Shown here piece after piece: positions 966-37,999 of a stretch of DNA of 64,000 nucleotides (the stretch's first letter is position 1; every line of letters starts with the position of its first letter). The stretch lies in IMG/VR virus record IMGVR_UViG_3300036399_001297, positions 19,005-83,004 of that record. The stretch is one strand, 5' to 3'. The translations under genes and the position numbers were made by a program. Source of the DNA: a virus. The notes under the pieces were generated by a model that saw only the letters and a list, made by a program, of their open reading frames with translations, was not told where the DNA came from and ran no database searches.

Positions 966-1786
966 ACTTCGGTTTCAAAATAGGAAATAATATCATCTAT
1001 TTCTTCTTGAAGTTCTGGTGTTATTTGTACAGAATACGGACCTTGAGGAGTTCCCCAAGTAAAATATGTAGGCAAAACTTTAGGAAATTCTCTATTAAAA
1101 ACAATTTTTCCGGTTATTATATATTGAGCTATTACTTCATTTGTAAACTCATAAACATTTCTTAATTTTCTATCTCTTGCTGATTTAAAAGTACCTAGAG
1201 CATGAGCAACTTGTCTTTGAATTTCTCTTATATTTCTTATTTTTTTAAAATCGGGTTCATAACTAGAAACTTTTAAATTTCTTTTATAAATTTTTTCGGA
1301 AACACTATTGATCATTTTTTGAAGCATATTATCAAGTTGAATATATTCGTAACTATTACCATTAATATCACCAGATCTTCTTAGAGCATGACCGAATCGA
1401 TGCGCTAATGTCCACGCAGTAGTAGGTACTTTTTCGGCTCCTTTATTATTAGTAAAAAAAATTGTAATATTATTTTCATTAATAGGAATATCTAATTTTA
1501 ATTTATCTCTAATAAAATAAGGATCTACTTCGCCAACTTCGGTATATTTCCATCCTTCTTTTGTAGAAACCATATAGATATCAAAATCCTGTCTGGTTTT
1601 AGCCCAAAGTTTTTTTATTTTTTCTACACCAGCATTACTAGTTAATATACCACGACTTGCCTTATCGTATCCTCTTTTTTTAGAAGTCGGTTCCCATTCA
1701 CCAACTAAATTAAAACTATCTATCGGTGCCTCTTTTAATAAATTAGAATATATGTTTTCTAAAAAAATTTGATCATTATCTCTCAT
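908..1786 (-). CDS. Phage protein with HRxGH motif and capsid-targeting-like N-terminus
   Basis: A 292-residue protein of unknown function. Residues 1-19 form a likely amphipathic helix ending LLKE/A, resembling T4 capsid-targeting sequences cut by the gp21 protease after (L/I)xE. In the middle, WTLAHRFGHALRR looks like a metal-binding HExxH motif whose Glu is replaced by Arg, so a hydrolytic zinc peptidase role is doubtful. Downstream of it lie YEFTNEVIAQYIITGK and a Pro/Gly/Thr segment. The ATG at 1786 overlaps the stop of the upstream minus-strand gene by 4 bases, so the pair is translationally coupled. It converges on the glycosyltransferase with a 58-base overlap. Confidence 0.75.
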   Translation of the reverse strand: MRDNDQIFLENIYSNLLKEAPIDSFNLVGEWEPTSKKRGYDKASRGILTSNAGVEKIKKLWAKTRQDFDIYMVSTKEGWKYTEVGEVDPYFIRDKLKLDIPINENNITIFFTNNKGAEKVPTTAWTLAHRFGHALRRSGDINGNSYEYIQLDNMLQKMINSVSEKIYKRNLKVSSYEPDFKKIRNIREIQRQVAHALGTFKSARDRKLRNVYEFTNEVIAQYIITGKIVFNREFPKVLPTYFTWGTPQGPYSVQITPELQEEIDDIISYFETEVYAWVDNLVDSAVGKIFVM

Positions 1787-2055
1787 TTTTTCTTTTTTCT
1801 TTTTTTAGGAACACAGTTAGGAACCATTCTTTTTCCCTTTTTCTTCATTCCTTGCTGCTCATATCCTTCCCAACAAGCTTCTAATATCATATTAAAATCT
1901 AAATATGATTCTGTCTGAGATTCGTTTTCACTAGATGATATAGCACCGATTTGAGCTACTGCTTTCTTTTTAGTACCATGCGTACCAAAACATTTATTTC
2001 CTGCTTTTTTACAAACTTTATATTTATTACCGGATTTTTTTATAGTGTAGGGCAT
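1783..2055 (-). CDS. Small basic Cys-containing protein, possibly packaged with DNA
   Basis: About 90 residues, very rich in Lys (ends PKKRKKKK). It starts PYTIKKSGNKYKVCKKAG, a basic Cys-containing module found in phages and giant viruses, followed by a middle helix (LDFNMILEACWEGYEQQG) with an ILE/A site and the segment KGKRMVPNCVPKK. I chose ATG 2055 rather than 2076 because it clears the stop of the upstream gene and lies behind a TAAGTA element. A DNA-binding or virion role is inferred from charge only. Function is not known. Confidence 0.65.
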   Translation of the reverse strand: MPYTIKKSGNKYKVCKKAGNKCFGTHGTKKKAVAQIGAISSSENESQTESYLDFNMILEACWEGYEQQGMKKKGKRMVPNCVPKKRKKKK

Positions 2056-2060
2056 ATTAT

Positions 2061-2066
2061 TACTTA
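2061..2066 (-). promoter_or_regulatory. Late-promoter-like TAAGTA element
   Basis: Minus-strand AATAAGTAATAATATG: the TAAGTA core ends 5 bases before the ATG at 2055. It matches the recurrent element seen before many other genes here. Confidence 0.45.
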
Positions 2067-2069
2067 TTA

Positions 2070-3569
2070 CTAACAATTAGCATTATCGTATGTACAAGAT
2101 CCATCGTCACACATATAGTTAACATTTGGATTATAATTAGATGAACAATAGTCTGTACATCCTCTTACTTCTGGTAAACATGAACCATCATCAAATTGAG
2201 CCGAATAACTATAATTCGAAGAACATGGATTTGTACAACCAAAATATTCAGGACAATTTGCATAATCGTAATTACAAGACCCATCATCACATAAAACAGA
2301 TGGGTTATAGTTAGATGAACAATAATCATTTAAACAACCCTTACTTTCAGCATTACACGATCCGTCATCTATTACCGCAGTATAATCATAATTCGATGAA
2401 CATGGATTTGTACATCCATATGTTATTAGAGTTCCGATTGCGTTTTGATATTCTATTGGATATCCGCCATATTGATCGGTGCAATTTGAACAAGTTCTAC
2501 TTTGTTGAAAGTATTGTCCTTGCGGAACAGTGGAAGGATCAGGTGTCCAAGATGTCCAATTTGGTGTTGTAATACCAACAGCAGATTTAGTTTGATTCGT
2601 AAAACAACCTCCCAAGTCACTTCTAGATTGTGTGAAAATTGTATTAAAGCAATAGTTAGTCGGTTCTGGTGTCCAATTTGACCAATTAGGAGTTGTACAA
2701 GGTTCTGAATACTCATAGGTTCTTATAACACCGCTTTCACATTTAACGCCTGCCCAAGATACACTTCCAACTTCAGGTGGACATGTACCACAATTCTGCG
2801 AACTTGCGTATCTTCCGTATTCATCATAATTCCATATATATTCTCCTAATTGAATAAATTCACAATTCGTTTCTCTGCCATAACCATATCTTAAATTTGG
2901 TTGTATCGTACATGTGAAATTTAATATACAATCACCTCCGGTATTACAATATGGATCATAATAACTAAGAATACTACCACTACCGAAACCACTGCAATCA
3001 TCTGGACCGCAACTTCCAGTATGATATGCAGAATCTGGTGGATACTCAATTTTCATTTCTCTTGTTTTGTAATAAGTACCGTTAGATAAAAATTTACAGC
3101 TTGTATTTACTATAGGTGCTGGCGGCGTCCATTCGGGTAAAACTATTAAAGTAGGCGTAGGATTAGGTGTATTAGTAGGTGTTCCTGTTGGTGTATTAGT
3201 AGGTGTTCCTGTTGGTGTATTAGTAGGCGTCTCTGTCGGAGTATTAGTAGGTGTCTCTGTCGGAGTATTTGTTGGTATAGGTGTATTAGTAGGTGTTCCT
3301 GTAGGTGTTATAGTGGGATTATTAGTAGGTAAAGGTGTATTAGTAGGTGTTCCGGTAGGAGTGCTAGTAGGAACCAGAGACGGTACAGGCGTGGGTGTAG
3401 GAGGAACTGGTGTAGAAGTAGGTCTAGGTGTGGGGGTAGGTGTATACAAATAGTCAGTATCACAACACGTAATTGTTTTACCATCAAGACATTCAAAAAC
3501 CATATGTGGAATTTTTCCATAATCCACAGATTTAAAACGACCTCCAGCTAAATTTATTTTATTATACAC
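2070..3569 (-). CDS. Thr/Pro-repeat, Cys-rich surface protein (putative adhesin or fibre)
   Basis: A 499-residue modular protein. After about 45 residues comes a long Thr/Pro stalk ([12 protein letters not shown] units, about residues 42-142). Next are two thrombospondin-1-like stretches ([10 protein letters not shown] and [10 protein letters not shown], each followed by spaced Cys). The C-terminus has four Cys repeats of the type [15 protein letters not shown], known from Bacteroidota surface proteins. There is no obvious signal peptide, so a virion-displayed host-binding protein fits best, by inference. The start is GTG at 3569, behind an ATAAGTAT element. The repeats make length variation likely. 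Confidence 0.75.
3151..3447 (-). repeat. Thr/Pro-coding tandem repeat
   Basis: Degenerate units of about 24 bases (core GTATTAGTAGGTGTTCCTGT as read on the plus strand) encode TNTPTGTP-like octads in the 2070-3569 protein. Several adjacent units are identical in DNA, suggesting recent slippage or unequal recombination. Confidence 0.85.
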
Positions 3570-3574
3570 TTTGA

Positions 3575-3582
3575 ATACTTAT
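3575..3582 (-). promoter_or_regulatory. Late-promoter-like ATAAGTAT element
   Basis: Minus-strand AATAAGTATTCAAAGTG places the element 5 bases before the GTG start of the Thr/Pro-repeat protein, supporting that unusual start codon. Confidence 0.45.
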
Positions 3583-3632
3583 TTTTTTTTACAAAAAATA
3601 TTGATATTTATTGTTTTTGTAATAATATATAA

Positions 3633-3640
3633 TATAAATT
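3633..3640 (+). promoter_or_regulatory. TATAAATT late-promoter-like element
   Basis: TATAAATT abuts the ATG at 3641 directly, the same arrangement as before the tail sheath gene on the minus strand. It may drive the glycosyltransferase cassette. An overlapping TATAAT at 3628-3633 could be a host-type -10 box, but no convincing -35 was found. Confidence 0.4.
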
Positions 3641-5101
3641 ATGCCAAAAATTGGAGTAGCTATTATAACCTTTAACAGACCCGACTATTATAAACAAGTA
3701 TTAGAAAAGATACCAAAAAATAAAATAGATCATTTAATTGTTATAAATGATGGTAAAAATGTATATGTTGAAAATAATGATGCTGATTGTGTTATAAAAA
3801 ATAATACTCAATTAGGGGTAGCCATTTCAAAAAATAAAGCTCTAAAAATTTTAATAGAAAAATACGAGTGTGATTATATCTTTATAGTCGAAGATGATGT
3901 TTTAATTTTAGATGAAAACGTTTTTGATATTTATATTGATACTGCAAATATTTTTGGGGTGCATCATTTAAATTTTGAAAAGGTTGCAGGAAATGATAAG
4001 ACTTTAAAATATTCGTATGAATCACCGTCAGGACATTCTATTGGTTTTTATCACAACCCTCAAGGAGCATTTTCATTTTTCAATAGCAATATAATTAAAA
4101 AGTTAGGATACTTTGATGAAAATTATACTAATGCATTTGAACATATTGATTTAGAATATAATTTAGCTAAAAATAAAGTAGCACCACCCTTTTGGTATTT
4201 TCCTGATGTTTTACATTCCGACAAACTTTTAACTACCATTGAAGGAAGTGATGAAAATTCTACTATAACAAATAAAGAAAAATACAGAGAAAATTGGGAT
4301 AAATCAGCCGAATATTTTGTAAAGAAACATGGATTTTTTACAAATACGATTCAAGAAATAGATAAAAAACTTCTACCGATGTTTTTAATACATCTTGAAA
4401 AAAATTATAGCAGAAAAAAACTATACAATAAGAATAAAAAGTTAGCAATCATAATTCCTTACAGAGACAGAAAATTAGCATTGGATACTATTATACCAAA
4501 ACTGTCCGAATATGTGTCAAAACAAGTTGAAAATTTTGAAATGTTTGTTGTAGAACAAGACAATAATAATCCTTTTAATAAAGGACTATTAAACAATCTC
4601 GGATTTTTAATAAATCCTGATTTTGATTATTATTGTTTTCATGATGTTGATTTGATACCAGAATTTTCGGATTATTCTTATCCCGAAAAACCAACACATT
4701 TAAGTTCTCATTGTAGTCAATTTAATTATATTAATATTCCAGATAAAATAATGGGAGGAGTTATAACTTTTCAAAAAGAACATTTTATAAAAGTAAACGG
4801 ATATCCTAACAATTTTGAAGGATGGGGGAAAGAAGATGATTGCTTATATTTGAGATGTGAAAAAAATAATTTAAATCCGTATAAACATCCATTCGGCCGA
4901 TATTTTTCAGTACCTCATCAACATAGATTAACAAATGAAATTGAAAATGAATTACATCTAAAAAACGGTAAAAAGTTTAAAGAAGAATCCGAAGGATTAT
5001 CTAACGGAGATATCAATGGGTTATCAACCATTGACATTAATAAATTTTTACTTAATATTAAGAAGGAAAATTTATATACACATATAAAAATTAAATTATA
5101 A
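3641..5101 (+). CDS. Two-domain glycosyltransferase: GT2-like fused to GT7 galactosyltransferase-like
   Basis: A 486-residue fusion. Residues 1 to about 250 form a GT-A domain paralogous to the 111-965 protein (IITFNRPDYY, VEDDVLI). From about residue 265 a second GT-A domain has the hallmarks of the beta-1,4-galactosyltransferase (GT7) family: AIIIPYRDR, the DxD-type FHDVDLIPE, GGVITF, NGYPNNF and the diagnostic EGWGKEDD. The donor is probably a UDP-hexose, as in GT7, but this is inferred. A linker with KNYSRKKLYNKNKK separates the domains. It starts the downstream cassette, with gaps of only 1-2 bases between genes. Confidence 0.85.
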   Translation: MPKIGVAIITFNRPDYYKQVLEKIPKNKIDHLIVINDGKNVYVENNDADCVIKNNTQLGVAISKNKALKILIEKYECDYIFIVEDDVLILDENVFDIYIDTANIFGVHHLNFEKVAGNDKTLKYSYESPSGHSIGFYHNPQGAFSFFNSNIIKKLGYFDENYTNAFEHIDLEYNLAKNKVAPPFWYFPDVLHSDKLLTTIEGSDENSTITNKEKYRENWDKSAEYFVKKHGFFTNTIQEIDKKLLPMFLIHLEKNYSRKKLYNKNKKLAIIIPYRDRKLALDTIIPKLSEYVSKQVENFEMFVVEQDNNNPFNKGLLNNLGFLINPDFDYYCFHDVDLIPEFSDYSYPEKPTHLSSHCSQFNYINIPDKIMGGVITFQKEHFIKVNGYPNNFEGWGKEDDCLYLRCEKNNLNPYKHPFGRYFSVPHQHRLTNEIENELHLKNGKKFKEESEGLSNGDINGLSTIDINKFLLNIKKENLYTHIKIKL

Positions 5102-5644: not shown

Positions 5645-6910
5645 ATGCAGACAGATCATAAACTTTTAATCAAATTTCCCACCAGAAACAGACCAGAAAA
5701 ATTTTTTTCGGTTCTTGATGAATATATAAAAAAGGCAAATAATTTAAACAAAATTGCTTTCCTGATTACTCTTGATAATGACGATCAATCTATGAAAAAA
5801 AATATCCATAGATTGGAAGAGTATAAAAAAATATGTAAATTAGTATATTTTTTCGGTGACAGCAAAACGAAAATACAAGCTTGTAACGCAGACATAAATA
5901 AGGTTTCTGGTTGGGATATTATTTTATTGGCCTCTGATGATATGATTCCGATTATAAATGGATACGATGATATTATTAGAAAAGATATGAATGATTTTTT
6001 TGGGGATATGGACGGAGTTTTGTGGTATAATGATGGCGGACAAAATCGAATCAATACCCTTTCTATATTAGGAAAAAAATACTACGAGAGATTTGGTTAT
6101 ATTTATCATCCAGATTATATTAGCCTTTGGTGCGATAACGAATTCACCGAAGTATCGGAACGTTTAAATAAAGTATATAAATCCGATAAAATTATTATAG
6201 AACATAAACATCCAGCATACCAAAAAACAAATTATGATGAATTGTATGTAAGAAACGAATCATACTTTAGCATAGATAAAGAAATATACGAAAGAAGAAA
6301 CGCTAAAAATTTTGATTTAGATGAAAAAGATTATCCTATAAGTTTATCGATTTTGACTCCGTCCGTACCAGAAAGGATAGAATCGCATCTAATTCCTCTT
6401 TTAAATAAAATTAAAGGTCAAATCGGAGATTTGCCAATAGAACATTTAGTTTTAATAGATAATAAAAAAAGAAGCATTGGTTATAAAAGAGATAGTTTGG
6501 TGAAAACCGCTAAAGGAAAATATTTGGCGTTTGTTGATGACGATGATGATATATCAGAAGATTATGTTTCTGAATTATATGACGCAATATCAAAAACTAA
6601 TGTAGATGTGATAACATTTGACCAATATTGTTATGTCAACGATAATGGAGTTAGTGTTATAAATTTTTCATTGAATCATAAAGAAAATGAAAATTACCGC
6701 CCAAACTCTAATATAAAAAGAATGCCTTTCCATGTGTGCGCTTGGAGAAGTAAAATAGCCCAAAAATATGATTTTGTCGATTTAAATTACTCCGAAGATT
6801 GGTATTGGTGTGAGCAACTTTTAAAAGAAACAAAAACAGAATTTCATATAGATAAAATTTTACACTCATATATCTATAGTGATAAAGTTACAACAACACC
6901 TCATAGATAA
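5645..6910 (+). CDS. Two-domain GT-A glycosyltransferase
   Basis: A 421-residue protein with two GT-A-like halves. The N-terminal half opens KFPTRNRPEKFF, continues LITLDNDDQSM and has LLASDDMIP. The C-terminal half (from about residue 235) opens SLSILTPSVPER and carries KRDSLVKTAKGKYL and FVDDDDDISEDY, close to the whole 5104-5643 protein. NYSEDWYWCEQLL supplies the late acidic motif. It is followed with no gap by the gene at 6911. Such tandem enzymes usually build a short defined glycan; whether the target is virion protein, DNA or host surface is unknown. Confidence 0.8.
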   Translation: MQTDHKLLIKFPTRNRPEKFFSVLDEYIKKANNLNKIAFLITLDNDDQSMKKNIHRLEEYKKICKLVYFFGDSKTKIQACNADINKVSGWDIILLASDDMIPIINGYDDIIRKDMNDFFGDMDGVLWYNDGGQNRINTLSILGKKYYERFGYIYHPDYISLWCDNEFTEVSERLNKVYKSDKIIIEHKHPAYQKTNYDELYVRNESYFSIDKEIYERRNAKNFDLDEKDYPISLSILTPSVPERIESHLIPLLNKIKGQIGDLPIEHLVLIDNKKRSIGYKRDSLVKTAKGKYLAFVDDDDDISEDYVSELYDAISKTNVDVITFDQYCYVNDNGVSVINFSLNHKENENYRPNSNIKRMPFHVCAWRSKIAQKYDFVDLNYSEDWYWCEQLLKETKTEFHIDKILHSYIYSDKVTTTPHR

Positions 6911-7600
6911 ATGAAAAAAATGATAACTTTTTGTCTTTTTGGTGATAAAAAGATCTTTCAAGAGGGGGCAATTAAAAACATAAAATTGTCTCAAGAAATA
7001 TATCCAGATTGGATATTAAAATTTTATGTATTCAAAGAAGATTTTAATTTTTCATCAAGACTCGAAAACTATAAAAATGTAGAAGTTGAAAAAATTGATA
7101 AAGATGGAGGGTTTTATTCGACTATTTATAGATTTTTACCATTAAGCGATCCGAGTATTAATTATTTTATATCAAGAGATTGCGATTCTCGTATATCTTA
7201 TAGGGAGAAACTTGCGGTAGATGAATGGATAAATTCAAATAAATGTTTTCATATAATGAAAGATCATCCTTTTCATATAACACCGGAATATCCTATTTTA
7301 GCTGGTATGTTTGGATCAAAGGGAGGCATTTTTCCTGATATTAAAAACTATATGAAAAATATATGTAAAAATTTTGAGGATCAAAAAGGAATAGATCAAA
7401 AGTTTTTATACCATTTATATCATGATTATGTAAAAAATGATTATATATTGCATCATTCTGAAAACTTTCCTACACCTAGAGACTTTAAAAAAGATAAAAT
7501 ATTTTTTGTGGGTCAAGCCTTTGATGAGAATGATAATTTTCACGCCAACTGGAAAGTTGATTTAGAAAAATTAGGTATAAATATAAATAACTATCAATGA
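6911..7600 (+). CDS. Putative glycosyltransferase with DxD motif
   Basis: A 229-residue protein. The key stretch is YFISRDCDSRISYREKLA, a DxD-type motif followed by the Arg-rich segment typical of a family of viral and bacterial putative glycosyltransferases, then AVDEWINS, HIMKDHPFH and LAGMFGSKGG. It starts right at the stop of the preceding gene, and its TGA overlaps the next ATG. Donor and acceptor are unknown. Confidence 0.7.
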   Translation: MKKMITFCLFGDKKIFQEGAIKNIKLSQEIYPDWILKFYVFKEDFNFSSRLENYKNVEVEKIDKDGGFYSTIYRFLPLSDPSINYFISRDCDSRISYREKLAVDEWINSNKCFHIMKDHPFHITPEYPILAGMFGSKGGIFPDIKNYMKNICKNFEDQKGIDQKFLYHLYHDYVKNDYILHHSENFPTPRDFKKDKIFFVGQAFDENDNFHANWKVDLEKLGININNYQ

Positions 7601-32671: not shown

Positions 32672-33282
32672 AAAACAGTATTGCAAGTAGAGTCATCAAC
32701 ATCTTTTAATAGATTTGCATGAACCTGATTGAATGAAAAAGAAACATTACATATAATTTCTGTTGGATCTTGATGAGATAATTTTACATCTGATAATGAT
32801 GTCGGAAAAGCATGAGTGTATTTAAACCCTATTATTCTATTGTTAAATTCATCTAAAGCGTATGTTGTAACGGTTGTAACAAAATCATACATTGTATTTT
32901 GGACCGCATTAGGACCAGCGGAATCGTCCTTTGTTTTATAATTGAAAACTGGAATACCGGATTTTTGATCATTGAATAAATTTATCCATTTCCACAAAAT
33001 CCAATAATTTTTCCAACCATTATCAATAACAAAAGGAACACTCAATCCAGTATATGCAGGTCTTGATATAGATGAAGCCTTTAAAACCTGTCCACCAAAA
33101 GGAACATCTATCGCAGGAACACTAACAGTAGGAACAGGAGATCCGTAACAAGTATATTGGACCGTATCGGGATGAAAATCGCTTTTTAAAAGATTATCGT
33201 ATTTACCTTTGAAATATTTAGGTAAATCTAAAACCAATAAAAATTTATCATTCCTTGCTCTATTTAATACAGCCTGATTCAT
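32668..33282 (-). CDS. Tail tube-like baseplate protein
   Basis: A 204-residue protein with a tube-fold look: early LLVLDLPKYFKG, VSVPAIDVPFGGQVLKASS, WILWKWINLF, TVTTYALDEFNNRIIGF and late ICNVSFSFNQVHANLL. This strand order and the KYTHAFPTSLSDVKLS segment (polar-to-buried switch with F-P) are typical of gp19-related tube and tube-initiator proteins. Lying next to the hub gene, it may form the first ring between hub and tube. Its exact T4 counterpart is not clear. Confidence 0.6.
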   Translation of the reverse strand: MNQAVLNRARNDKFLLVLDLPKYFKGKYDNLLKSDFHPDTVQYTCYGSPVPTVSVPAIDVPFGGQVLKASSISRPAYTGLSVPFVIDNGWKNYWILWKWINLFNDQKSGIPVFNYKTKDDSAGPNAVQNTMYDFVTTVTTYALDEFNNRIIGFKYTHAFPTSLSDVKLSHQDPTEIICNVSFSFNQVHANLLKDVDDSTCNTVL

Positions 33283-33300
33283 AAAAATACTTAATATGAT

Positions 33301-34983
33301 TTAAAAAAATACCAGAGGATTATAACCGTCTTCGTTTTTTAATTCTTGTTCCTTTTTATCATTAGATCTCCAAATTATTTCTGGACTATGAGATTTGTAT
33401 TCATATTCGTATCTATTTTTTGTAATATTAGGTTCCCATTTAAGTAATTCCGATTGAAATCCTAATCCTTCTGATATAACAGCCGGATCTTCTTTTATTT
33501 TACCTTCGGGTAAATAGGCTAGGGGAGCATTATAAGATATTTCTTTTTTTGTGGTATTAACCGTACCAAATATAATAGGACTCTTTTTAATAAGATCGGA
33601 ATTATCGATAAAAGGAGTCATAAATAATGGTCTTCCTTGATCATCGGTTTGTTTAACATTAAAATATTTTTGTGCTAATGTTGGTTCTAGGATAAATAAA
33701 GCCCATACTAATGACCAAACTCTATCATCTCTATCACTTTCATTTTTTTTAGAAAATGTGTAATTAGGCAGTTGTACAAATTCTGCTATTTCTATTAAAG
33801 TATCGAGATCAAATATTTTAACAGCTTTTAAACTATCTACCCAATAACGGAAATTTGTCATACTCCGATATCTAGTATTCGTATGATTGTATATACCCAA
33901 TCTATTTTCATTATTGTAGTGCTGAGACATCCCCTCAAATTTATAAGTAACCACTGATTCATAATTGTGGGTTCTGGCAACAACATCTAAAACCTGTTGA
34001 CCGTAATTATTGTTTTCGATTAGTATAGGAGGTCTACCCCAATCATTTGCGATACCGATAAGACGTGTACCGAAATGATACGGTGTTATAGTATTGGATG
34101 CAAATATAGCCACCTGTTCTATATTGGTTAAATCTGAAACATCTAAAACTTGAGCTACTGTATTAGTTCTTCCTATCCCCTCACCAACGTCCACCCCTAT
34201 AATATAATGACTTGTTGGTTTTGGTTGTCTATAAATTTTATAAGAACCTTCGTCTGTTGCTAAAATAGGCTCTTTACATAATTTTTTAAGTTCTTCTAAA
34301 TGTTCGGCTGATATAACAGATTTGCCTAACGTATGAAAAGTATTTTCGTGTTCTTGTTGAAATGTATGTAGTGATCCTAATGAAGCTATTTCACTTTTCT
34401 TCCATTCTTCATTACGGTCATCATTTTCACTCCAATGCACTTTTTCCAGTTTCCATCCACTGTCAGGTTTTTGAGCTTCTAAATATAATTGATAAAATTT
34501 ATTTTCTTTATCGGCTCCGTTAGGTGTAGATATTCCAACAATCTGACTTTTTTTAGAAGACGTTATAGTAGGTATAACAGATTTCCATAATTCCTCCATC
34601 AAATCATTTTGTATATGTGCCATTTCATCAATTATGAGGCATTGATGTGATAATATATTATTAGAAATATATTTATGATTATCTACAACTTCTAAAAATT
34701 CATAAACAGGATCATTATTTTCATATTCCTCTTTTTTTATTAAAGAAATATTATTCCAAAAAATATCACCGATTTTAGAATTTTTAGCATATTTCCATTT
34801 TTTTGATGAAATCATAATTTTATGTTTAGGTGTACAGTTTAAAATTTCACCATTAGAAAAGTATAATTTTAACTTTTTATTATTTTTTCCAACAATTAAT
34901 CCTTTAAAATCTTTAAATCCCTCATCGGTTAAAATTTCAAAATCATTATTTTTATAAATTTTGTAATCAGATAAATCGGCCAT
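33301..34983 (-). CDS. 17: Terminase large subunit, intein C-half plus C-extein (nuclease part)
   Basis: Last part of fractured terL. From ATG 34983 the first 114 residues are an intein C-half ending ILSHQ. The C-extein then starts CLIIDEMAHI, the Walker B, and continues with GISTPNGADKENKFYQLY, FQQEHENTFHTLG and the RNase-H-like nuclease: YIIGVDVGEGIG, ILIENNNYGQQVLD and ESDRDDRVWSLVWALFI, with its acidic catalytic residues. The 446-residue extein plus the upstream pieces gives about 635 residues (T4 gp17 has 610). A GTG at 35013 is an alternative start but overlaps the endonuclease gene. Confidence 0.93.
   Translation of the reverse strand: MADLSDYKIYKNNDFEILTDEGFKDFKGLIVGKNNKKLKLYFSNGEILNCTPKHKIMISSKKWKYAKNSKIGDIFWNNISLIKKEEYENNDPVYEFLEVVDNHKYISNNILSHQCLIIDEMAHIQNDLMEELWKSVIPTITSSKKSQIVGISTPNGADKENKFYQLYLEAQKPDSGWKLEKVHWSENDDRNEEWKKSEIASLGSLHTFQQEHENTFHTLGKSVISAEHLEELKKLCKEPILATDEGSYKIYRQPKPTSHYIIGVDVGEGIGRTNTVAQVLDVSDLTNIEQVAIFASNTITPYHFGTRLIGIANDWGRPPILIENNNYGQQVLDVVARTHNYESVVTYKFEGMSQHYNNENRLGIYNHTNTRYRSMTNFRYWVDSLKAVKIFDLDTLIEIAEFVQLPNYTFSKKNESDRDDRVWSLVWALFILEPTLAQKYFNVKQTDDQGRPLFMTPFIDNSDLIKKSPIIFGTVNTTKKEISYNAPLAYLPEGKIKEDPAVISEGLGFQSELLKWEPNITKNRYEYEYKSHSPEIIWRSNDKKEQELKNEDGYNPLVFF
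34642..34983 (-). other. Intein C-half (IntC) of atypically split TerL intein
   Basis: This 114-residue half contains block B (LNCTPKHKIMI), which is in the N-half of ordinary split inteins, then block F (VYEFLEVVDNHKYI) and block G (NILSHQ). The terminal residue is Gln instead of Asn, followed by Cys +1 (34641-34639). The layout resembles the AceL-TerL class. Confidence 0.88.
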
Positions 34984-34984
34984 T

Positions 34985-35851
34985 TTATTTTTTTCTATGT
35001 TTTTTTCCACCACTTTTTATCCATCCAGTTGGAATATCTTGAGAAATAGGATGTCTTTTAATCTTATTTGTAGTCGTATCACATATAAAAATATATTTTT
35101 CTATACATTTTTTACCAGTGCCTTTTACCCATCCATCAGGTATAGTTATATCCGGATTATGTCGTTTACAAACATTAGCGACTGAGTTATATATATAAAT
35201 AGAACCTTTACCTGATATTTTTGATATATTTTCTTTATTATTTTCGCGTGATTTTAAAATACCATCCCTAATATTTTTTTTAGCTTCTTCGGATCTTTTC
35301 ATACCCCTGTGTTTTTCGGCCATTTTTTTAATTTTTTCGGGATTTTTATTGATTTTTATCATACGTTCTTTATGTTTTTCCGGATTTTCTTTTATCCATT
35401 TTTTAATACCAATTCCTTTTCTTTTATTTATTTCTGGATTATCAAAAACTTTTTCTCTCATCATTTTTTTATAGTCTTCAGATTTCCATTTTTTTTTAAA
35501 TCTTGTAGATATCTTTTTTATTGCCTTTGATGACCACGCACAAGGCCCATAGCCACCTTCTTTAATGTTATACGTATCATTTCTTTCTATAAATTCTAAT
35601 GTTACTAATTTTCTTTCGGCGTGAAGTGCTTCTTGATACGTATTATAAAAATTCAATATTGTTTTTTTAAAATTTTCTATTCCATATTTTTTTATGGATC
35701 TTTTTAAATTAAGACCAGACCCCATATAACCATCATCTATATTATCTGTCCTATGAACTCCTATATAAATTTTACCGTTTTTAATATTTTCAATTTCATA
35801 TAAATAATTGTATTTTCTATTTATTTTCGGATCGTTTAAATGTTTCTTCAT
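34985..35851 (-). CDS. GIY-YIG homing endonuclease inside terL
   Basis: A 288-residue free-standing endonuclease between the halves of the split TerL intein. The N-terminal catalytic domain has YLYEIENIKNGKIYIGVHR, followed by YMGSGLNLKRSIKKYG. The centre is a run of Lys-rich NUMOD3-like DNA-binding segments (NPEKIKKMAEKHRGMKRSEE). The C-terminus has two repeats ending in IPDGWVKGTGKK and IPTGWIKSGGKK. Its stop is 1 base before the IntC ATG. It has its own TATAAGTA element. It probably cuts intein-free terL alleles and drives spread of the locus, which is inferred. Confidence 0.88.
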   Translation of the reverse strand: MKKHLNDPKINRKYNYLYEIENIKNGKIYIGVHRTDNIDDGYMGSGLNLKRSIKKYGIENFKKTILNFYNTYQEALHAERKLVTLEFIERNDTYNIKEGGYGPCAWSSKAIKKISTRFKKKWKSEDYKKMMREKVFDNPEINKRKGIGIKKWIKENPEKHKERMIKINKNPEKIKKMAEKHRGMKRSEEAKKNIRDGILKSRENNKENISKISGKGSIYIYNSVANVCKRHNPDITIPDGWVKGTGKKCIEKYIFICDTTTNKIKRHPISQDIPTGWIKSGGKKHRKK

Positions 35852-35857
35852 TAGAAA

Positions 35858-35865
35858 TACTTATA
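35858..35865 (-). promoter_or_regulatory. TATAAGTA late-promoter-like element before the terL-inserted endonuclease
   Basis: Minus-strand TATAAGTATTTCTAATG: the element ends 6 bases before ATG 35851. Confidence 0.5.
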
Positions 35866-35898
35866 CACGATGATTTATTATAGATGAATTTGCTTATA

Positions 35899-37638
35899 TC
35901 AATCATTTAAAACTATAAAATGAGGCGGTTCTTCTTGATTATTTTTTAACAATTCTTCTAGATCTTTTAAATTGATTTTAAATATTTCTTCTGTTTTTTT
36001 ATCTTTTAATGTTACAATTGTGTCACCAGTAACACAATTTATAGATTGACCTCTAACAGCAGAAGCAGAAGTAGAAGAAACTATAATACTTGACCCATTA
36101 CTAAGATCGAATCCGTTTTTTCTATTAGATTTTACAGCTGGTTTTAAATATACAGGCAATTCTTCAAAAGCCATTTTTATTCTAGAAAAAATTTCCATGG
36201 CAGTATCAGCTTTGTTAGCCAGTATAGCAACTTTTTTATATTCATGAAAGCATACTAACCATAAAGCATACATGGAAACAATTGTGCTATTGTGAGTAGG
36301 TATTAAACCTTTTCCACATAGATATAAAGAATCTGGACTATCTACGGTGATACATCTAACAGGAACACTTTCTACTTCTTTAATATCTTTTATATAAAAA
36401 TATTGATTTCTTTTAGATGTTGACAAATAAGTTTTTACAAATCTAGAACATTTAAAATCCGAACAAGTAACACATTCTCTTGGTTTAAAATATAGAATAC
36501 CACATTTTGTATATTCTTTATCTTTAATTTTAGGTATTTTTTCATTATATTTTACCTTATATCCTAAACTTTCTATCAATTCTTTTACTTGTAAAATTAA
36601 AGGTATATTAGTATTATAAAAAATAGCACTTCCGTTTTTTTCAATATATCCATCAGAATCCATTAAACCTTTTAAAAGCTCCATTCTTTGATGTTTGGAT
36701 GCTTTTAAAAATATATCGGGTATATGTTTATTTTTAAATAAATTGTTAGTTCTTAAATGATAGTATAAAGAATTTTTTTTATCTTCGTTAGTTAATTTTA
36801 CAAGAAAATTGTCTTTTTTATATTCTTTAACGTTTATTATTTTATAAAAATCTAATTCTTTTATCTTTTTTAAAATAGAATCTATATCTCTTATTCCTAT
36901 AGTTATTCTAGAATCATTCGAATGTCCATCTCCTAACCACAAACCTAAAATATATGGATTTATAGGTAAATTCTTGTTATCATTATATAAACCATCTACA
37001 CACGAAATTATACGATGATTTGGTTCTCCGCTTAATGTCGTTAAAGTTTTTAAAATTTCTTCTGTTGTTTTTGAACAACCTTTACTTTTTTTAGTTTTTC
37101 TATCATTTCTAGTTTCAGTAAACCAAAGATGTTCAGCATCAGCGATTATTTTTTCACCGTTATCAAATAATATTTCGTAACATTTTCTATTGTGTAATAT
37201 ATCATGCGCTTTTGTTACGTTGTAGATGTTTCCGTCAGAACCATATATTTTATCTCCGGTTTTTAAATCTCCCATTTTTAAAAATCCATTTGGAGTTGGT
37301 ATAGGAGTTTCAATAGAAAGAGCTTTCCCCATCTGTCTCGAAGCACATACCAATAATCTTCTTTCGTCCTTTAAACTTTTTAATATTCTTTTTTGATATT
37401 TTCTAAGTTTAATTTTTATTTTACCTTCATCTAAATTTACAATATGAAAATGTCTTTCCGCAAAATGTAAAATACTTTTAGCACATGTTCTATTTTCTTC
37501 GAACATCTCTTCGGTAAAGATTATTTTTGCGTTCTTGTTTAGAAGATTTTCATTTCCTTTATAATATCCACCATCGACAAGAATATTATCTTTATCAATT
37601 TCAGGAACATCAGGAATAGGTGCTTTTTTTCTTGGCAT
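35899..37638 (-). CDS. 17: Terminase large subunit, N-extein with contiguous intein plus second IntN
   Basis: First part of fractured terL, 579 residues. Residues 1-105 are extein ending LVCASRQMGK. Residues 106-450 are a contiguous intein with a LAGLIDADG endonuclease domain. Residues 451-534 resume the ATPase: STIVSMYALW, VAILANKADTAMEIF, DLSNGSSIIVSS and AVRGQSIN. Residues 535-579 are the N-half of a second, split intein (CVTGDTIVTL). Removing the first intein restores the Walker A SRQMGKST, comparable to T4 SRQLGKTT. The packaging ATPase therefore needs one cis- and one trans-splicing event. It starts 2 bases after gp53. Confidence 0.93.
   Translation of the reverse strand: MPRKKAPIPDVPEIDKDNILVDGGYYKGNENLLNKNAKIIFTEEMFEENRTCAKSILHFAERHFHIVNLDEGKIKIKLRKYQKRILKSLKDERRLLVCASRQMGKALSIETPIPTPNGFLKMGDLKTGDKIYGSDGNIYNVTKAHDILHNRKCYEILFDNGEKIIADAEHLWFTETRNDRKTKKSKGCSKTTEEILKTLTTLSGEPNHRIISCVDGLYNDNKNLPINPYILGLWLGDGHSNDSRITIGIRDIDSILKKIKELDFYKIINVKEYKKDNFLVKLTNEDKKNSLYYHLRTNNLFKNKHIPDIFLKASKHQRMELLKGLMDSDGYIEKNGSAIFYNTNIPLILQVKELIESLGYKVKYNEKIPKIKDKEYTKCGILYFKPRECVTCSDFKCSRFVKTYLSTSKRNQYFYIKDIKEVESVPVRCITVDSPDSLYLCGKGLIPTHNSTIVSMYALWLVCFHEYKKVAILANKADTAMEIFSRIKMAFEELPVYLKPAVKSNRKNGFDLSNGSSIIVSSTSASAVRGQSINCVTGDTIVTLKDKKTEEIFKINLKDLEELLKNNQEEPPHFIVLND
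35902..36036 (-). other. Intein N-half (IntN) of atypically split TerL intein
   Basis: 45 residues from Cys535 (CVTGDTIVTLKD, block A) to the stop. It lacks block B, which is found in the C-half, so the split lies unusually early in the intein. The insertion point follows AVRGQSIN, directly before Walker B. Confidence 0.88.
36289..37323 (-). other. Contiguous LAGLIDADG intein in the TerL Walker A motif
   Basis: 345 residues from Ala106 (ALSIETPIPTPNGF, an Ala-start block A) to Asn450 (GLIPTHN), followed by Ser +1. The inner endonuclease has both LAGLIDADG helices: YILGLWLGDGHSND and LLKGLMDSDGYIEKNG. Extein joining gives ...QMGK/STIV..., so the intein interrupts the P-loop Lys-Ser bond. Confidence 0.92.
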
Positions 37639-37639
37639 T

Positions 37640-37999
37640 TTATCTATTTAATTGTTTCTTTAATTCATTCAATACCATATAAACATAATCGGATTTCAAT
37701 ATTCTTAATGTTGTTCCATTTTCGGGAAATTCGACAGGATTTGATATTTGATTATATTCACAAACCAACCACCATAGATCAGTAGTATTATAAAATTTAT
37801 AAGAAATATAAGGCCATGTATCACCTTCTTTTGTTTGATATTGTTGATCTATTGTATTATCATTTGCCGGATAAACGGTAATATTTTTTAAAATATTATA
37901 AAATGTTGTTTTTGTTTCGTCATCATTATAAACATTAAAAAAATTTTCAAATCTATATACCGAAAGATTTTTTATAGGATTTTGTATGCTGTCATTCAT
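37640..37999 (-). CDS. 53: Baseplate wedge protein gp53
   Basis: A 119-residue wedge subunit. It has LSVYRFENFFNVYND at the start and the LysM-like core QTKEGDTWPYISYKFYNTT followed by DLWWLVCEYNQISNPVEF, the signature of gp53 and related phage wedge proteins. T4 gp53 is longer (196 residues), so this is a compact version. A CAATAAATAAT stretch precedes ATG 37999. Confidence 0.85.
   Translation of the reverse strand: MNDSIQNPIKNLSVYRFENFFNVYNDDETKTTFYNILKNITVYPANDNTIDQQYQTKEGDTWPYISYKFYNTTDLWWLVCEYNQISNPVEFPENGTTLRILKSDYVYMVLNELKKQLNR

Follow-up and report, generated by a model that had tools for sequence, protein, structure and literature searches.

How can a large terminase gene (terL) that is interrupted at both of its ATP-binding motifs yield a working packaging motor, and are the interruptions a regulatory device or mobile passengers? 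The question arises from a 64,000-nucleotide stretch of viral DNA (hereafter the window) taken from IMG/VR record IMGVR_UViG_3300036399_001297, an 83,004-base fragment, in which a T4-type terL lies in pieces on the minus strand. We consider it most probable (roughly 0.92) that two protein-level homing elements entered this gene independently of each other: a contiguous intein within Walker A (intein 1) and a split intein immediately ahead of Walker B (intein 2). The double interruption at both ATP-handling sites is real, and the open reading frames (ORFs) and junctions were exactly as an initial annotation of this DNA had described them, with one intein contiguous and the other split.

Architecture of the interrupted terL

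The locus comprises the following features, where IntN and IntC are the N- and C-terminal halves of the split intein:

37638-33301, minus strand: whole terL locus, a T4-type terL in pieces.
37324-37638, minus strand: TerL N-extein 1, 105 aa, ending in CASRQMGK, the first half of Walker A (ORF and junction reading, gp17 alignment).
36289-37323, minus strand: intein 1, contiguous, 345 aa, class 3-like with a LAGLIDADG domain, Ser at +1 (profile, structure-database and fold matches).
36037-36288, minus strand: TerL extein 2, 84 aa, from ST to RGQSIN (junction reading, gp17 alignment).
35902-36036, minus strand: IntN of split intein 2, 45 aa, CVTGDTIV to IVLND followed by TGA (TIGR01445 on the fused halves, homologues).
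34985-35851, minus strand: free-standing homing endonuclease gene of the GIY-YIG (SegE-like) type, 288 aa, separating the two intein halves (SegE_GIY-YIG, GIY-YIG, phrog_314).
34642-34983, minus strand: IntC of split intein 2, 114 aa, MADLSD to NNILSHQ, with a C-terminal Gln (Cat match, alignment, dN/dS).
33304-34641, minus strand: TerL C-extein, 446 aa, from CLIIDE of Walker B and including the nuclease domain, stop codon at 33301-33303 (Terminase_6C, gp17 alignment, PHROG).

When joined, the three exteins, whose lengths and coordinates the initial annotation had given correctly (105+84+446 = 635 aa), aligned without a break to T4 gp17 (3ezk, E 3.7e-56; also 3cpe). The alignment covered residues 24-426 and ran through both junctions (SRQMGK-ST and RGQSIN-CLIIDE), and this unbroken homology, which takes in Walker A and B and spans the ATPase as well as the nuclease domain, identifies the product as a T4-type large terminase. 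The exteins also matched PHROG terminase families, with the C-extein scoring slightly below the cut-off against Terminase_6C. Leave-out hidden Markov models built from relatives detected intein 1 at E 2e-145 and IntC at E 2e-50, compared with about 0.01 for the best of 1000 shuffles. A single C-terminal terL half is present in the record, and no second terL was found within its 83,004 bases; family scans of the whole record for further intein or GIY-YIG elements matched this locus only.

Intein 1 is inserted inside Walker A at the Lys/Ser boundary (QMGK/ST). Its key residues are Ala1, Trp67, Cys324, Thr343 and a C-terminal HN before Ser; the W, C, T and N are invariant and Ala1 nearly so across 16 aligned sequences. 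The lack of Ser, Cys or Thr at position 1, together with a W-C-T triad in blocks B, F and G, corresponds to the definition of class 3 inteins (PMC5050341). The nearest solved structures by sequence were mycobacterial DnaB inteins (6rix, 6riy and 6bs8; best 6rix, E 9.5e-26), among which 6bs8 is class 3. An AlphaFold2 model of intein 1 (pLDDT 90.7) matched PI-SceI along its length as the best fold match (TM 0.76), and its splicing domain matched class 3 DnaB inteins. A profile match to LAGLIDADG_3 (PF14528, E 6.6e-8) exceeded the cut-off, and both LAGLIDADG motifs are intact (LGLWLGDG and LLKGLMDSDG), with D132 and D224 invariant; two motifs, catalytic acids and a PI-SceI-like fold are the features of an intein-encoded LAGLIDADG homing endonuclease. 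Intein 1 is thus a class 3-like contiguous intein with a LAGLIDADG domain. Walker A inteins of other constitutions were also seen: one related contig carries a class 3-like mini-intein from which the LAGLIDADG domain has been lost (L132:3954-4760), adjoining a split intein that lacks the homing endonuclease gene (HEG), and in another (L084:4242-5000) Walker A holds a split intein (IntN CLTFNT.., IntC ..SHN/TT) rather than a class 3 contiguous one, with Walker B empty.

Intein 2 lies immediately ahead of Walker B (QSIN/CLIIDE). IntN opens with CVTGDT, and IntC contains TPKH in block B and DNHKY in block F and ends in NNILSHQ before Cys. C1, TPKH and C+1 are class 1 features; the last residue is Gln, not Asn. 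The fused halves matched TIGR01445 (E 3.6e-6), and the best solved relative was Cat, both by sequence (6dsl, E 2.8e-4) and by fold. A short IntN and a near-complete Hint domain in IntC (45 and 114 aa), encoded in separate ORFs, with IntC having its own ATG, are the marks of an atypical split intein, and intein 2 appears to be a class 1, Gln-ended example of the AceL-TerL/GOS-TerL/Cat kind.

The 288-aa ORF between the halves matched SegE_GIY-YIG (PF19835, 28.8 bits) and GIY-YIG (PF01541, 23.3 bits), both over the cut-off, as well as phrog_314 (homing endonuclease, 2e-36), and is thereby identified as a GIY-YIG homing endonuclease gene, the sole GIY-YIG gene of the record. It is separated from the IntN TGA by a short gap, and a single base separates its stop codon from the IntC ATG. 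The title of the initial annotation leaves out this gene (34985-35851).

Empty sites and mobility of the two inteins

Comparison with related contigs (designated L) revealed natural empty alleles at both insertion points. L004, whose C-extein is 99% identical to that of the window, shares the split intein and the GIY-YIG gene of the window but has an empty Walker A (CASRQMGK-STIVSMY). In L003 (61% identical) both sites are empty and TerL is a single 633-aa ORF, and empty Walker B sites (RG.SIN-[CI]L..DE) were found in L003, L090 and L110. These alleles validate both junctions and confirm the insertion points originally proposed. Occupancy was assigned by junction inspection; BLAST spans alone give false "empty" calls at Walker B because the alignments run a few residues into IntN and IntC.

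Occupancy was scattered. The Walker A intein occurs alone in L010, L012 and L015, and the Walker B split intein alone in L006 and L007. L009 contains intein 1, IntN, the HEG and IntC, the contig ending just after IntC, and both inteins are also present in IMG/VR contigs L132, L133, L145, L147 and L148. Near-identical TerL sister rows differed in occupancy (window/L004, L133/L134, L118/L119 and L122/L017), and a 126-row TerL tree required a minimum of 18 occupancy changes at Walker A and 7 at Walker B. In L012, a TnpB-like ORF (6311-7573, judged by eye) lies directly downstream of the intein-bearing terL of this phage contig.

Between the window and L009, synonymous divergence (dS) was 0.046 for intein 1 and 0.66 and 0.21 for the adjoining exteins; intein 1 therefore spread recently. 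The ratio of nonsynonymous to synonymous divergence (dN/dS) is low in both IntC (0.01) and the GIY-YIG gene (0.14), indicating purifying selection, which also acts on the exteins and splicing domains. Precise empty alleles, a scattered distribution and an age below that of the host gene, the last compared for intein 1 only, are properties of homing elements, and together with the LAGLIDADG and GIY-YIG nucleases they bear out the initial suggestion that the inteins behave in this way. The conserved codons of Walker motifs offer good targets for homing, and failure to excise cleanly from them is lethal, which would account for the presence of two homing elements in one gene.

The initial annotation had further proposed that the timing of splicing could gate packaging. 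Under such a scheme, cis- and trans-splicing would delay the motor until late infection and the inteins would be kept for that purpose. Both insertions break ATPase motifs, so unspliced protein is expected to be inactive, a C-terminal Gln could slow splicing (PMC4031507), and double occupancy recurs. However, nearly identical phages lack intein 1, others lack both inteins, terL with neither is common (67 rows in the occupancy tally), and the active-looking nucleases already explain retention. Because relatives lack one or both inteins and occupancy has changed repeatedly, no part of the arrangement is conserved in the way expected of a regulatory switch. We regard a packaging gate as very unlikely, and both inteins appear to be homing elements, carried as mobile passengers.

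Proposed routes from a fractured gene to a functional terminase

In the proposed mechanism, the first element, lying between the Walker A Lys and Ser with its internal LAGLIDADG nuclease, would excise in cis by way of a branched intermediate at the block F Cys. The second, an apparently class 1 split intein directly before Walker B (SIN/CLIIDE), would be made as two separate polypeptides, a short IntN and a long IntC, with the GIY-YIG gene between them; these would associate, trans-splice and finish by cyclisation of Gln rather than Asn. During co-infection, each nuclease would cut intein-less terL alleles and so copy its own element. With both elements in place, TerL is expected to require one splicing reaction in cis and one in trans, functional protein arising only after both. 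The requirement stated in the initial annotation follows from the anatomy to this extent, provided that nothing else restores the protein.

One way around trans-splicing would be for the N- and C-terminal TerL chains to assemble non-covalently, leaving IntN and IntC as vestigial linkers. A precedent exists in fractured phage NrdA, which retains function according to Friedrich 2007, as that work is cited in PMC3322345. Against this, none of the catalytic residues of the intein has been lost (C1, TxxH, block F D/H, Q and C+1), and IntC, with its dN/dS of 0.01, has been kept across about 25 or more contigs. Such an assembly seems slightly less probable even than a packaging gate.

Repair at the RNA level, by a group I or II intron or by translational bypass around the GIY-YIG gene, would make intein 2 contiguous and cis-splicing. 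GIY-YIG genes often reside in group I introns, and the terL transcript of phage ICP1 is spliced (PMC10448857). However, no Rfam match was obtained over 33200-37800 even at E 1, so that neither a group I nor a group II intron was recognised near the GIY-YIG gene. IntC homology begins at a conserved Met (MAD) in divergent members, and members without the HEG retain separate IntN and IntC ORFs. In Vibrio phage vB_VmeM-32 (VmeM-32), the two halves of a split intein are encoded at remote genome positions and from opposite strands, which precludes RNA-level joining of that gene in cis. We consider this route less plausible again. That terL is simply a pseudogene broken by two insertions, one of which fractures the ORF, is scarcely credible, since all frames are open, the exteins and splicing domains are under purifying selection, and the same arrangement occurs in L009 and elsewhere.

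Colonisation by two homing elements is thus the preferred reading, and several points weigh against it. From the sequence we infer splicing of both inteins, cleavage of the empty sites by both nucleases and inactivity of TerL before splicing. The splicing efficiency of the Gln-ended intein 2 is uncertain, a C-terminal Gln often slowing step 3 (PMC4031507). As the record is a fragment of 83 kb, a further terL may lie outside it. Finally, the sample was partly fetched for carrying inteins, so occupancy frequencies are biased; the counts of change are minima.

The Gln-ended clade and relation to known systems

Homologous IntN sequences were found in about 25 further contigs, and the sampled Walker B split-intein family comprises about 30 contigs. 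IntN is typically 42-47 aa, and IntC, about 114 aa long, starts with MAD and has Gln as its last residue in nearly every case, the exceptions being KN (L136) and HN (the remote L152-L156). In the Gln-ended members (L006, L007, L080, L129-L148 and L150, apart from L136) the penultimate residue varies (HQ, NQ, RQ, SQ, KQ or EQ). L080/L081, L132, L135, L137 and L144-L148 have no endonuclease gene between the halves, and their IntN and IntC are still separate ORFs. Persistence of the fracture after loss of the endonuclease gene may imply adapted, Gln-cyclising trans-splicing and a one-way ratchet in which HEG insertion leads to permanent fracture, an idea we hold tentatively and at somewhat less than even odds. 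Two members differ in their endonuclease gene: in L152 (2459-2863) the GIY-YIG coding sequence is fused in-frame behind IntN and not free-standing, and in L007 (4079-4983) the gene between the halves is divided between two frames, pointing to decay or to an error in assembly.

Inteins ending in Gln have been described before, and their splicing can be slow or good (PMC4031507, PMC8175363); no account of an entire split-intein clade with this ending was found in the intein literature cited here. This Gln-ended, persistently fractured clade is the least familiar feature of the locus. Candidate splicing tools can be drawn from it, and it serves as a natural experiment in how splicing persists once the canonical Asn is gone. 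The locus as a whole is a clear example from nature in which a single essential motor protein is predicted to undergo two protein-splicing reactions of different chemistry; its near-isogenic empty alleles make it possible to test the inteins for cost, order and mobility, and the comparison reveals how often the Walker motifs of one gene are recolonised.

Intein 1 has its closest counterparts in mycobacteriophage and mycobacterial inteins. Its position, between Lys and the hydroxyl residue that follows in Walker A, corresponds to the "classic" P-loop insertion site known from TerL1-a inteins of mycobacteriophages (PMC5050341). Class 3 inteins of mycobacteriophages and of mycobacterial DnaB (6rix, 6riy and 6bs8) share Ala1 and the W-C-T triad with it, and the TerL1-a/class 3 inteins likewise have a LAGLIDADG domain and have spread between phage ATPases. 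Unlike these, intein 1 resides in a T4-type (gp17-like) terL of an uncultivated phage. Intein 2 resembles AceL-TerL, GOS-TerL and the engineered consensus Cat (PMC11766414) as a TerL split intein with apparent class 1 chemistry and Cys+1. IntN is short in all (25 aa in AceL-TerL, 37 in GOS-TerL and 45 in intein 2) and IntC long (104, 115 and 114 aa, respectively), whereas intein 2 differs in its terminal Gln instead of Asn and its conserved MAD start.

Combinations of terL inteins also occur in cultured phages. VmeM-32 (KU160494.1) has one split and one contiguous TerL intein in a mirrored arrangement, split at Walker A (GK/T) and contiguous after Walker B (VDE/C). Its N piece (SRQLGK/CVTGDT..) lies at 80624-79947 on the minus strand (L166:1448-2125, minus), and its C piece at 1102-3216 on the plus strand (L040), with IntC..SHN/TTVT followed by a contiguous mini-intein at VDE/C. 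The N piece is annotated merely as a hypothetical protein similar to terminase. Campylobacter phage CP21 (HE815464.1) has cis and split terL inteins at or near Walker A and B; its terL (L044:624-4910) reads as three inteins, one of them split: a mini-intein at PRQ/SSK, a split intein near RGFS/CNIIVVDE with a HEG-like ORF, and a mini-intein at VVDE/CAY. The CP21 split intein was considered as a same-site counterpart of intein 2 and rejected, residue counting placing its site two residues upstream. Around 3070-4125, CP21 has no annotated coding sequence; two C-terminal intein parts lie there. For phage IBB_35, the authors report one terL intein and an intron with a HEG (PMC3322345).

In the E. 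coli T4-like phages kaaroe and CE1, an IntN, an endonuclease-like ORF and an IntC interrupt terL near Walker B, as in the window. These split inteins are related to intein 2 (~31-35% identity) but were rejected as same-site relatives, being inserted six residues downstream (IDE/CAF); they are also Asn-terminated. Work by Dassa and colleagues in 2009 reportedly described genes fractured at a split intein with a free-standing endonuclease gene between the halves, which is the arrangement of the window terL; the nuclease there is said to be of the Vsr-like EDxHD family, whereas that of the window is GIY-YIG/SegE-like. The locus thus consists of known kinds of element, and its double arrangement is not unique to the window phage.

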